A stretch of DNA of 64,000 bases from Brevundimonas sp. G8 (lineage in GTDB: Bacteria; Pseudomonadota; Alphaproteobacteria; Caulobacterales; Caulobacteraceae), in assembly GCF_902506205.1 (NCBI RefSeq), contig NZ_LR732816.1, positions 248,001-312,000 of the forward strand, written 5' to 3'. This document shows, piece after piece, positions 7,721-36,074 of the stretch (position 1 is its first letter; each line of letters starts with the position of its first letter). Below the pieces are notes generated by a model. That model saw only the letters and a list, made by a program, of their open reading frames with translations, ran no database searches and was not told where the DNA came from. A program made the position numbers and the translations under genes.

Positions 7721-7950
7721 CGGGCCTCGAACGACCGGTCGGACATCGCGATCTTCCCCAGGCCGCCTCTCGAGGCAGCCGAAATCCCTACCGCGCTAAT
7801 GGTCAAGCCGGCAGACGATGTCAACGCGCGATGACATTCGCGCGGATGTTTGTCGTTCGACCGTGTCGAGACCGCCTCCCCCAATCTATTTTCCCCAACT
7901 GTCACGCTGACGCTGATGCCAAACGCGGCCGAACGGGATTCGTTCTCGGG

Positions 7951-9405
7951 TCAATCCATACGCTGTCGAACCGCGACCAGATCATCGATGAACAACCGCC
8001 GCGCCTGAACCTTCGCCGCTTCATCCGGAAGGCGCAGCAGATAGGAGGGGTGGACGGTCAGGACGGCGCTCGATCCATCCTCCAGCGCGATCGGCGCACC
8101 GCGTTCCTGCATCACCGCCGGCTTGCGCCCCAACAGCGCCAGACCGGCCGTCGCGCCCAAGGCCAGCACCACCCTGGGCTTAATCAACCGCCGCTCAGCA
8201 TCCAGCCACCAGCGGCAGGCCTGGACCTCGCCCGCGTTCGGCGTCTTGTGCAGACGGCGCTTGCCGCGCGGCTCATGCTTGAAGTGTTTGACGGCGTTGG
8301 TGACATAGACGTCGGATCGGTCGATCCCCGCCTCGGCCAGGGCCGCATTCAGAACCTGACCCGCCGGCCCGATGAAGGCGCGACCCGCCAGATCCTCCTG
8401 ATCGCCCGGTTGTTCGCCGACGATCATCAGCCGCGCCATCTTTGGCCCCTCGCCGCACACCCCTTGGGTCGCATCACGATACAGCGGGCAACGGCGGCAG
8501 GCCTGAACGCCGTCGGTCACATCCGCCAAACTGTCCGGCACCGCCTCAGCGTCCGGCCGCGCGGCGTGAAGATCGGGCGCCGTCAGACGCGCGAAACGCG
8601 GATTGGGTTCGGGCGCAGGCGTGGCGACCATGGTCTCGGTGCGAACCGACGATGCGGCGATCAGTTCGGGAATCAGCGCGGCCTCGGGCAGGTTCTTCCA
8701 ATAGGATTTGGCCATCTCGCCCTGCATGGTCTTCACCTTCAGCCGCGCAGGATTGAAGGTCGAGGCGTAGTAGGTCTTCCAGAAATCCTCGATCTCGTCC
8801 TCGGCTGGCGCCATGTCGCGCGTCGCGGGCGGGCCGAACCGCAAGGTCTCACCATCCCAGAAGGCCGAACCGTCCGGCGTCAGGATGGACCAGCGCATCG
8901 TCGTGAACCGCCGCTGGAAGAAGGGCGCAGTCTTTTCCAGCACCCGGTGCGGCGGTTCGAACCACGCCACCCAGGCCTCGCCGCGATCATCGTGAACCTG
9001 ACGAAAGCGCACGAAAGCCTTCATCTTGTGCGAGGCCCGGCTGACGTTCTTGGCCCGCTCCAACGCGTCGGCCACGTCGCGGTCGGAGATCACCTTGATC
9101 AGATCGGGCTCGTCCCGCAACCGCCACAGCAGCCGATACATCAGGTCGAACCGGTCGGCGGATCGATGCAGGATCAGGTTCTGGGCCAGATCCACAAAAT
9201 CCTTGGGGACGCTGAATTCCTGCCGCTCGTCTGCTCGTAGGTCGGGGTGAGCGGCGGTCGCCTCATCGAACAATCCCCCCTGTTCCTGCCCGCCGCGCAC
9301 CACGAACCGCGCCGCCGCCGGCTCCACCCCCGCCAGCCGGAACGCCCGCGCGGCCTTGCGCCAGCCGTCGAAGTCCGTTTCGCCGTCCAGTATCGCCGTC
9401 CCCAT
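7951..9405 (-). CDS. TIGR03915-type DNA repair domain fused to a UdgX-type uracil-DNA glycosylase
   Basis: A 484-aa two-domain protein. Residues 1-260 match the TIGR03915/DUF4130 family, which accompanies a specific radical SAM protein. Residues 290-484 are a family-4-like uracil-DNA glycosylase of the UdgX type: CRRC iron-sulfur Cys (303, 306), motif GEQPGDQED (330-338), the UdgX loop KRRLH (382-386) and HPSYLLR (452-458). In UdgX, the His of KRRIH forms a covalent bond with the abasic sugar after uracil excision; His386 is the equivalent. The first base of its start codon region overlaps the stop of the upstream radical SAM gene (TGATG), so the two are coupled. The reaction of the N-terminal half is unknown. 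Confidence 0.9.
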   Translation of the reverse strand: MGTAILDGETDFDGWRKAARAFRLAGVEPAAARFVVRGGQEQGGLFDEATAAHPDLRADERQEFSVPKDFVDLAQNLILHRSADRFDLMYRLLWRLRDEPDLIKVISDRDVADALERAKNVSRASHKMKAFVRFRQVHDDRGEAWVAWFEPPHRVLEKTAPFFQRRFTTMRWSILTPDGSAFWDGETLRFGPPATRDMAPAEDEIEDFWKTYYASTFNPARLKVKTMQGEMAKSYWKNLPEAALIPELIAASSVRTETMVATPAPEPNPRFARLTAPDLHAARPDAEAVPDSLADVTDGVQACRRCPLYRDATQGVCGEGPKMARLMIVGEQPGDQEDLAGRAFIGPAGQVLNAALAEAGIDRSDVYVTNAVKHFKHEPRGKRRLHKTPNAGEVQACRWWLDAERRLIKPRVVLALGATAGLALLGRKPAVMQERGAPIALEDGSSAVLTVHPSYLLRLPDEAAKVQARRLFIDDLVAVRQRMD

Positions 9406-10643
9406 CAGAACAGGCTCAACTGTTCAGGCGTGCGGCTGGTCACGCGCGCCCTCAGGTCCGCCGCATCCGTCAGCCCGCCCGGCGTCCAATCCAGCGCCGT
9501 GATGAACGGCCGGATCTTGGCCACCGACCGAGTCAGCCGGCCGACATCCTCCAACCGCAAGGTCCGATAGCGTCGAACCGACACGATCCGGTCCACCGCC
9601 TTCACGCCCAACCCCGGCACCCGCAGCAGCATCTCGCGCGGCGCCCGGTTCACATCGACCGGAAACTGCTCACGCTTGTTCAGCGCCCAGGCCAGTTTGG
9701 GATCGACCGCCAGGTCCAGCATGCCGTCCGACGCCCCCTCACCGATCTCTGGCGCGGAAAAGCCGTAGAACCGCATCAGCCAGTCGGCTTGATAGAGGCG
9801 GTGCTCGCGCATCAGCGGCGGCTTGGACAGGGGCAGGATCGCGCTGGAATCCGGGATCGGGCTGAACGCCGAATAATAGACCCGCCGCAAGCCATAGCCG
9901 CCGTACAGCGACGCGCTGCGCTCCAGGATTTCGGTGTCCGGCGCGCCGTCGGCGCCGATGATCAACTGGGTGCTCTGGCCGCCCGGCGCGAACTTCGGCG
10001 GCTTTATCTTGTCGCCTTTGCCTGGCTTGGCTGCCTCGACGCCCAGCCGCACCTGGCTCATGGCCTTCTTGATGACGCCTACGTCCTTCTGTGGCGCCAG
10101 TCGGGCCAGGGCCTCGTCGCGCGGCAGTTCGATATTGGCCGACAGACGGTCGGCGTACAGGCCCGCCATCTCCACCAGTTTGGGATCGGCCTCGGGGATC
10201 AGCTTCAGATGGATATAGCCTCGGAAGTCGTGAACCTCGCGGAGGGTCTTTGCGATTAGAACCAGCTGTTCCATCGTATAGTCGCCGGATCGAATGATGC
10301 CCGACGACAGGAACAGCCCTTCGATATAATTCCGCTTGTAGAAATTCAGCGTCAGATCGACGACCTCGTCCACATCGAACCGCGCCCGCTCCACATTCGA
10401 CGACACCCGATTGATGCAATAGGCGCAGTCGTAGATGCAGAAGTTGGTCAGCAGGATCTTCAGCAGGCTGATGCACCGCCCATCCGGCGTATAGGCGTGG
10501 CAGATGCCCATGCCCTCGGTCGAGCCGATCCCCTTACCGCCGACAGAGTTCCGTTTCGACGTCCCCGACGACGAGCAGGACGCATCGTATTTCGCCGCGT
10601 CAGCGAGGACGGACAGTTTTCGACGCAGATCGAGACGAGCCAT
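9405..10643 (-). CDS. Putative DNA modification/repair radical SAM protein (TIGR03916)
   Basis: A 412-aa radical SAM enzyme. The CX3CX2C cluster is NFCIYDCAYC (Cys69, 73, 76). The N-terminus has the family's GKGIGSTEGMGICHAYTPDGR segment in broken form here (residues 37-57). The C-terminus has a helix-hairpin-helix DNA-binding motif (LLRVPGLGVKAVDRI), so a DNA or nucleotide substrate is likely. It is always paired in genomes with a TIGR03915 protein; here that partner is fused to UdgX and overlaps by 1 bp. The ATG at 10643 is two bases from a LexA box, pointing to SOS control. No Shine-Dalgarno is visible, and the transcript may be nearly leaderless. Confidence 0.92.
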   Translation of the reverse strand: MARLDLRRKLSVLADAAKYDASCSSSGTSKRNSVGGKGIGSTEGMGICHAYTPDGRCISLLKILLTNFCIYDCAYCINRVSSNVERARFDVDEVVDLTLNFYKRNYIEGLFLSSGIIRSGDYTMEQLVLIAKTLREVHDFRGYIHLKLIPEADPKLVEMAGLYADRLSANIELPRDEALARLAPQKDVGVIKKAMSQVRLGVEAAKPGKGDKIKPPKFAPGGQSTQLIIGADGAPDTEILERSASLYGGYGLRRVYYSAFSPIPDSSAILPLSKPPLMREHRLYQADWLMRFYGFSAPEIGEGASDGMLDLAVDPKLAWALNKREQFPVDVNRAPREMLLRVPGLGVKAVDRIVSVRRYRTLRLEDVGRLTRSVAKIRPFITALDWTPGGLTDAADLRARVTSRTPEQLSLF

Positions 10644-10644
10644 T

Positions 10645-10659
10645 GTTCATGATACGTTC
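10645..10659. promoter_or_regulatory. LexA (SOS) box at the start of the radical SAM/UdgX cassette
   Basis: The sequence GTTC-ATGATAC-GTTC matches the alphaproteobacterial LexA operator exactly. It ends two bases from the radical SAM start codon, so bound LexA would block initiation at this promoter. The only other gene here, flgL, ends 50 bp away and is transcribed toward the box. Confidence 0.85.
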
Positions 10660-10708
10660 TCGCACGATGATCGGTCCAGCGTGGCCGTTTCTTTTTTAAT
10701 GCCGCCGC

Positions 10709-35438: not shown

Positions 35439-36074
35439 ATGCCGCTATCGCACGCCAAACTGTGGAAGGCCGTCGACACATTAGCGCGACGCGAGGGCCT
35501 GACGCCGTCGGGCTTAGCCCGCCGCGCCGGTCTGGACGCCACCAGCTTCAACCCCTCCAAACGCTTTGGTCCAGGCGATCCGCCGCGTCCGCGCTGGCCA
35601 TCGACCGAGAGCATGACCTTGGTGCTTCAGGCAACTGGGGTGTCGCTGTCCGACTTCGCAGTCCTGGCCGATGATGCACCGGATAGACCCACCACCGTGC
35701 CGCTTCTCGGATTGGCCAAGGCGGGACAGGACGGGTTTTTCGACGATGCCGGCCTGCCGATAGGCGAAGGCTGGGATCAAACCGACCTGCCCCGCGCCAA
35801 GGACACTCTGTTCAGTCTGAAGATCACCGGCGATTCCATGTCGCCGCTCTATCGCGAGGGCGACCGGGTCATCGTCGATCAGGAGGCGACGCGCGTGCGG
35901 CGCGGCGACCGGGTCGTGGCCCGGCTGACGACCGGCGAGACCGTCGCCAAGGAGGTGACCAGCCTGACCAGCCGCACGGTCACCCTGTCCTCTATCAATC
36001 CAGAATATCCGCCCCGCCTCGTGCCGCGTCGCGAAATCGAATGGATGGCCCGCGTTCTGTGGGTCAGCCAGTAA
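35439..36074 (+). CDS. HTH-S24 (LexA/CI-like) repressor
   Basis: A 211-aa regulator. The N-terminal helix-turn-helix (TLARREGLTPSGLARRAGLD) is followed by a linker and an S24 peptidase domain with Ser133 (GDSMSPLYREGD) and Lys171 (ETVAKEV), the serine-lysine dyad of self-cleaving repressors. A candidate Ala-Gly cleavage bond is at 95-96 (LAKAGQDG). It could respond to RecA or act as a non-cleaving repressor. No phage genes are near. A shared terminator separates it from the convergent SH3 gene. Confidence 0.9.
   Translation: MPLSHAKLWKAVDTLARREGLTPSGLARRAGLDATSFNPSKRFGPGDPPRPRWPSTESMTLVLQATGVSLSDFAVLADDAPDRPTTVPLLGLAKAGQDGFFDDAGLPIGEGWDQTDLPRAKDTLFSLKITGDSMSPLYREGDRVIVDQEATRVRRGDRVVARLTTGETVAKEVTSLTSRTVTLSSINPEYPPRLVPRREIEWMARVLWVSQ

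Follow-up and report, generated by a model that had tools for sequence, protein, structure and literature searches.

Predicted SOS control of a radical SAM–DUF4130 gene pair with a separable UdgX domain and a clamp-like tail in Brevundimonas

A two-gene locus of the alphaproteobacterium Brevundimonas sp. G8, which encodes a radical S-adenosylmethionine (SAM) protein and a DUF4130 protein fused to UdgX, was analysed within a stretch of 64,000 nucleotides (contig NZ_LR732816.1, positions 248,001 to 312,000), referred to here as the window. Conservation of LexA boxes across the Pseudomonadota makes SOS control of the pair close to certain and indicates that this control follows the radical SAM–DUF4130 pair and not UdgX. 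The locus as a whole is best explained as a LexA-repressed two-gene operon for an SOS-induced, clamp-tethered radical enzyme that would act with its partner on DNA near replication, with UdgX as an optional add-on serving as an accessory trap for uracil or abasic sites; taken jointly, we give this explanation about an even chance.

SOS control and the radical SAM–DUF4130 pair

Among 398 genomes of the Pseudomonadota, the radical SAM family TIGR03916 was found above cut-off in 84, the DUF4130 family TIGR03915 in 87 and UdgX (TIGR03914) in 78. DUF4130 accompanies the radical SAM protein in all 84 genomes and stands without it in three of the 398. UdgX above cut-off is missing from 21 of the 84 radical SAM genomes, and 15 of the 398 have it while lacking the radical SAM gene; the two are found together in 63, which exceeds chance if kinship is ignored. 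A box within 200 nucleotides of the radical SAM start, searched as GTTC-N7-GTTC on either strand in the Alphaproteobacteria and as CTG[TG]-N8-[AC]CAG in the other classes, is present at 55/55 alphaproteobacterial loci (control, 8/2200) and at 24/29 loci of other classes (control, 43/1160), that is, at 79 of the 84 surveyed loci.

Genomes with UdgX (60/63) and those without it (19/21) have the box at much the same frequency, and the box is absent in either form from all 12 stand-alone UdgX genes, namely those in genomes with neither the radical SAM gene nor above-cut-off DUF4130, which argues that SOS control belongs to the radical SAM–DUF4130 pair. Two of these 12 genomes (G199, G203) seem to hold DUF4130 remnants. 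The co-occurrence of box and UdgX fusion, a question raised in a preliminary description of the locus, thus turns out not to be a tie between the two. The box is also found in all three genomes with DUF4130 and without the radical SAM gene, together with UdgX in G346 and G363 and without above-cut-off UdgX in G431, and it is kept with a DUF4130 fragment in G219; starts in genomes lacking the radical SAM gene were set at the first possible in-frame codon, so that positions are rough and the G363 box lies 23 nucleotides inside the assumed reading frame. The G219 locus (L257) lacks the radical SAM gene and the larger part of DUF4130, so that the DUF4130 fragment and UdgX follow close behind the box. 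The separation from UdgX marks the radical SAM protein and DUF4130 as the core of the system.

At the locus itself the exact box reported in the preliminary description stands, but not its overlap with the start region, as the box ends one nucleotide before the radical SAM start codon (10643-10641) and merely abuts it. Matches to the bare pattern (three in the window against 1.92 expected; 117 genome-wide against 46 for the reversed pattern) are too weak as evidence, and pattern counts alone were dropped as proof, so that the case rests on position and conservation. TIGR03916 was found in 83 of 150 relatives (82 above cut-off) and in 7 of 22 genera, and their loci were aligned by start codon, leaving out a second fragment in G053 and two remnant loci without a readable start (L090, L091). 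Including the window, 73 loci of the genus have a readable start, with an exact box at 64 and a one-off box at nine, and 62 of the 64 exact boxes lie 0-2 nucleotides from the start codon; nine loci from other genera of the order add eight exact boxes and a one-off box. Of 6500 control windows taken across all 130 loci compared, 22 held a box. As positive controls from the same genome, recA has one upstream box and lexA two, and uvrA, to which the preliminary description likened the locus, has a box at 172-186, 81 bases before the likely ATG at 268, a start read from the open reading frame.

Several loci depart from the common arrangement. Eight loci of the genus (L036, L047, L051, L064, L065, L069, L072, L089) carry GAACATAATGGCAAC or GAACATAACGGCAAC ahead of the radical SAM gene, in every case with CAAC as second half-site, which may be a LexA site that has shifted or weakened. 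L090 (G073) is a decayed copy in which a radical SAM start of about 57 residues and a damaged box are followed by UdgX-like remnants, and L091 (G088:C1:1752983-1753120) is a second, short and partial hit to TIGR03916 (positions 1-45), found next to a full copy elsewhere in its genome. L126, L127 and L131 (G445, G241, G531) have no recognised LexA box; ahead of the radical SAM gene they share an inverted repeat, TCTCATCCAATGAGA, which may be the site of a different repressor.

Predicted promoter and protein features

The only sigma-70-like site on either strand of 3.3 kb consists of TGGACC and TATCAT separated by 18 nucleotides (9/12 matches; 0.5 expected). As its -10-like hexamer lies within the LexA box, transcription is predicted to begin at or near the ATG. 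A -35-like word is found 16-21 nucleotides before the box at 51 of 71 loci of the genus (3.9 expected) and at 18 of 28 others (1.7 expected), and is missing by the same test from 20 and 10, respectively, although the excess is somewhat flattered by words picked after the sequences had been viewed and by a shuffle that preserves base composition only; L085 had too little upstream sequence to be included. The spacing to the box seen in the window is not constant within the genus, where it varies by about 3 nucleotides. In the related Caulobacter, leaderless transcripts are frequent, with 375 reported (PMC4117421). The promoter-like geometry and the recurrent -35-like element support the earlier guess of a leaderless transcript, and the operon mRNA is likely leaderless with the start site deduced from sequence. 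A comparison of Shine-Dalgarno sequences was uninformative (9/86 box-abutting, 6/25 box-distal and 1/9 in-between starts scored), and AGGA at the box edge probably yields false positives.

The radical SAM protein was compared in alignments of 18 diverse proteins (A1) and 72 proteins (A2); the 120 closest of 8000 matches from large protein searches served for alignment only. Exactly six cysteine columns are kept in at least half of the rows and all six are invariant in both alignments, including the CX3CX2C motif C69-X3-C73-X2-C76, and the six-cysteine pattern is found in 239/239 proteins. Six cysteines are enough for two 4Fe-4S clusters, so the protein could hold, besides the radical SAM cluster, a second cluster on C23, C48 and C57, which we would liken to that of lipoyl synthase or MiaB.

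The protein ends in a motif resembling those that bind the beta sliding clamp. Defined strictly as Q[LMI]xL[FLW] or Q[LM]xLG[FL] within the last 14 residues, it occurs in 77/81, 57/77 and 77/80 proteins of three sets (211/238 in total), and in a broader form in 80, 74 and 80; Q[LMI]xL[FLW] is not found in the other 95,665 residues of the same proteins, and shuffled tails would give 0.008-0.019 motifs per tail. Within A2, Q408 and F412 are invariant, L411 is kept in 99% of rows and the roughly 25 residues ahead of the motif are poorly conserved, a variable linker that suggests an accessible tail. Motifs that bind the clamp are defined as Q-phi-x-[L/M]-[F/L] or as a six-residue variant, and several known examples are located in C-terminal tails (PMC11139829); QLSLF is the C-terminal clamp motif of PolC (PMC12309361). 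Docking of the radical SAM protein on the clamp through its tail is considered probable, on the strength of motif conservation. A candidate second motif in DUF4130 (QGGLF) was rejected as too poorly conserved (Qxx[LMI]F in 39 of 67 rows).

The UdgX domain aligns to Mycobacterium smegmatis UdgX structures (PDB 6AIL and relatives; E about 1e-51), and its motifs GEQPG, KRRLH and HPSYLLR are intact. In M. smegmatis UdgX the cross-linking histidine is His109, and UdgX-type proteins cross-link to the site with no hand-over to ordinary base excision repair (PMC10359453). The corresponding histidine is present in 116/116 fused reading frames with motif A, of which the pattern recovered 115 and visual inspection one more; a first scan for this loop, which missed 22 of 117 owing to too strict a pattern, was replaced by the scan of the 116.

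Proposed mechanism and alternatives

In the preferred explanation, LexA on its box would shield the -10 region together with the start site, and its cleavage upon DNA damage would allow the leaderless mRNA to be made, a geometry seen in the sequence with a predicted start. The radical SAM enzyme would carry its SAM-cleaving 4Fe-4S cluster and a putative second cluster on three cysteines, probably bind DNA through a segment resembling a helix-hairpin-helix (HhH), and dock on the sliding clamp by the motif observed on its variable tail. The DUF4130 partner would most likely recognise or present the lesion, and the pair would act by radical chemistry on damaged bases or sugars, in DNA that has just been replicated or is stalled. 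The fused UdgX would capture uracil or abasic sites covalently, by the chemistry of M. smegmatis UdgX whose residues are kept here, and would be dispensable for the core reaction. Direct action of the pair on DNA appears somewhat more probable than not, and the further step to a replisome-docked, two-cluster radical SAM enzyme that with DUF4130 performs a new radical DNA chemistry at the fork or behind it, UdgX being an optional trap for uracil or abasic sites, is put forward tentatively, at a little under even chances.

Several observations weigh against this explanation. Relatedness among the genomes inflates all counts, which therefore overstate the number of independent events; on the other hand, the type of box changes between classes, which argues for independent maintenance. 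No recognised box is present at 5/84 loci, the two genes lie about 3 kb apart in two of the 84 genomes (G374, G386), and four of the best 80 loci from a wider scan described below (L172, L205, L229, L239) have no DUF4130 match in the stretch examined around the locus. The radical SAM protein resembles no solved structure beyond short stretches among 12 PDB matches, the HhH match stays below the Pfam cut-off (HHH_3, 19.3 bits against 27, E 0.0013) next to weak ComEA and RuvA structure matches (E 0.0016 and 0.0043), and the strict clamp motif is absent from 20 of 77 phylum-level proteins, the broad form from three.

The preliminary description pointed to a route of uracil or alkylation repair in which the radical step directly precedes or follows the excision of a base by the fused UdgX. 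This route is consistent with the fusion, the 1-bp gene overlap, the intact UdgX motifs and the joint occurrence of UdgX and the radical SAM gene above chance, yet the pair lacks above-cut-off UdgX in a quarter of its genomes (21/84), the DUF4130 partners at 76 of the best 80 further loci give no match into UdgX, and UdgX captures the abasic site without handing it on (PMC10359453). With the box present with or without UdgX and at none of the stand-alone genes, the step from UdgX fusion to excision route is weak, and the partly supported route itself is judged unlikely.

Spore photoproduct lyase (SPL) is a one-cluster enzyme, and SplB, a DNA repair enzyme of the radical SAM type with a CX3CX2C motif, has features in common with the protein studied here. 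A direct reversal of UV-induced thymine lesions would fit this motif and the name SplB-like radical SAM photolyases given to DUF4130-associated enzymes in 2013 (PMC3765255); it is set against three extra invariant cysteines, the absence of an SPL family from the NCBIfam matches and of an SPL structure from the 12 PDB matches, and the listing of SplB (COG1533) apart from COG4277 among the SOS genes (PMC8565304), and we hold it to be no more probable than the excision route. Slightly less probable still is a role in which the pair, rather than repairing bases, modifies them to assist translesion synthesis or mutagenesis, after the label of predicted mutagenesis-related enzyme in PMC3765255: SOS control and a clamp motif are common to translesion polymerases, with motifs of Pol IV and Pol V described (PMC11139829), whereas there is no evidence of a stable modification and the six-cysteine pattern does not discriminate. 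Resolution of the covalent UdgX–DNA adduct by the radical enzyme together with DUF4130 is in keeping with the physical fusion and the cross-linking histidine retained in all 116 fused UdgX read, but the occurrence of the pair without UdgX and of UdgX without the radical SAM gene (15/398 genomes) makes this the least probable of the alternatives by a clear distance.

Gene layout, distribution and comparison with known systems

The gene pair had been correctly described beforehand, as reading frames and above-cut-off profile scores bear out. The radical SAM protein matches TIGR03916 (547.4 bits against a cut-off of 343.5) and no other NCBIfam family, and we take TIGR03916 to be the same as COG4277. 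The fusion protein matches TIGR03915 (208 bits against 112.25) and PF13566 (129.5 against 27) in its first part and TIGR03914 (316.4 against 189.95) in its second. The genes share one base at 9405 (TGATG), where the ATG of the fusion gene overlaps the radical SAM stop codon (Table 1). From their translations, the upstream neighbours are flagellar FlgL/FlgK-like genes and the downstream ones STAS/MlaE-like and ABC-transporter-like genes. Elsewhere in the window, GAACGGGATTCGTTC at 7931-7945 forms an inverted GAAC-N7-GTTC right after the UdgX stop codon, with about 0.9 such sites expected by chance per window, and positions 35439-36074 (plus strand) encode a 211-residue repressor-like protein of the LexA/S24-peptidase type with a sub-cut-off TIGR00498 match (30 bits).

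Table 1. Features of the locus, in window coordinates
Feature	Position	Strand	Basis
LexA box GTTCATGATACGTTC	10645-10659	plus	exact pattern, position, conservation
Radical SAM gene, TIGR03916, 412 aa	9405-10643	minus	open reading frame, NCBIfam profile
DUF4130-UdgX (TIGR03915-TIGR03914) fusion gene, 484 aa	7951-9405	minus	open reading frame, NCBIfam profile
-35-like hexamer TGGACC	10673-10678	minus	promoter scan, genus comparison
-10-like hexamer TATCAT inside LexA box	10649-10654	minus	promoter scan; predicted start about 10642-10644 (ATG)
Six invariant cysteines C23, C48, C57 and C69-X3-C73-X2-C76	10416-10577	minus	A1 and A2 alignments; second cluster putative
HhH-like segment, residues 328-358	9570-9662	minus	HHH_3 and weak ComEA/RuvA matches
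QLSLF, beta-clamp-binding-motif-like tail, residues 408-412	9408-9422	minus	motif scan, A2 alignment
DUF4130/TIGR03915 domain, residues 9-242, constant partner	8680-9381	minus	profile matches, co-occurrence survey
UdgX/TIGR03914 domain, residues 244-478	7972-8676	minus	profile and structure-sequence match
UdgX R-loop KRRLH, His aligned with His109 of the M. smegmatis KRRIH loop	8248-8262	minus	alignment, motif scan

The pair is spread over the Pseudomonadota and Bacteroidota loci examined. A scan of named genomes with alignment A1 gave 587 loci, of which the best 80, mostly from Bacteroidota, were kept; a radical SAM protein can be read at every one of these, and at 76 there is a DUF4130 partner of 245-342 residues whose match ends by query residue 247, before UdgX. 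At loci taken as Bacteroidota, CTAA-N5-TTAG is present in 23/72 (control, 19/1440) and GGA-N5-TCC in 12/72 (control, 57/1440), so that Bacteroidetes-type LexA motifs are enriched but limited to a minority of these loci, a partial result. In L124 and L129, the genes that follow the radical SAM gene look unrelated. Plasmid carriage was seen in 158 of 72,556 records, 142 of them typed non-mobilizable, and large replicons of Phaeobacter, Leisingera and Paracoccus carry the radical SAM gene; on pP59_a (NZ_CP010742.1, L273), the record read, it has an annotated 1-bp overlap with a UdgX gene and a box 2 nucleotides before its start. Phage records gave 10 matches in 50,697, among which the one annotated record read, from Acinetobacter, was rejected, its neighbours being the host genes glyS and glyQ, so that it looks like chromosome. 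Of two unannotated gut records also examined, one (MT835514.1, L270) yielded a protein, a divergent radical SAM relative with the six cysteines and the tail RQLSFFD, which is not the strict motif, and upstream of position 2501 two near-matches to GAAC-N4-GTTC flank a TATAAT; we take this pattern to be the Firmicutes-type LexA motif, which makes these sites suggestive.

With respect to previous work, LexA motifs were reported at a COG1573-COG4277 operon in Bacteroidetes, and SOS regulation of the uracil-DNA glycosylase (UDG)-based system earlier in Verrucomicrobia (Erill 2016) and Alphaproteobacteria (da Rocha 2008), both as cited in PMC8565304, while DUF4130 has been linked to SplB-like radical SAM proteins and UDGs (PMC3765255). 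The SOS link and the gene association are therefore already known, and the LexA control proposed in the preliminary description, strongly supported here by box conservation, had been published for the pair (PMC8565304). The six invariant cysteines and the C-terminal clamp-like motif appear to be new, as the open-licence literature yielded no report of either for this pair, nor, in one search, of any radical SAM enzyme with a clamp-binding motif, nor of a leaderless promoter of the pair or of UdgX-independence of its SOS control; no known substrate of the pair was found. The clamp-like tag suggests a cellular site of action and the six cysteines a number of clusters.

The COG1573-COG4277 operon resembles the present locus in combining a UDG with COG4277 in two genes under LexA control, but is framed in PMC8565304 as a UDG base excision system, whereas here DUF4130 is constant and UdgX optional. 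Beyond that account, a clamp-like motif, six cysteines and a predicted leaderless promoter are added. The motifs GEQPG, KRR[IL]H and HPSxLLR are found in both M. smegmatis UdgX and the UdgX described here, which differs in being the C-terminal half of a DUF4130 fusion in an SOS operon. The radical SAM protein shares the Q-L-x-L-F motif with clients of the beta clamp, for example PolC and Pol V. From SplB, going by what is generally held of SPL, it differs in that no sequence match was detected between them and in its three extra conserved cysteines, its HhH-like segment and its clamp-like tail.

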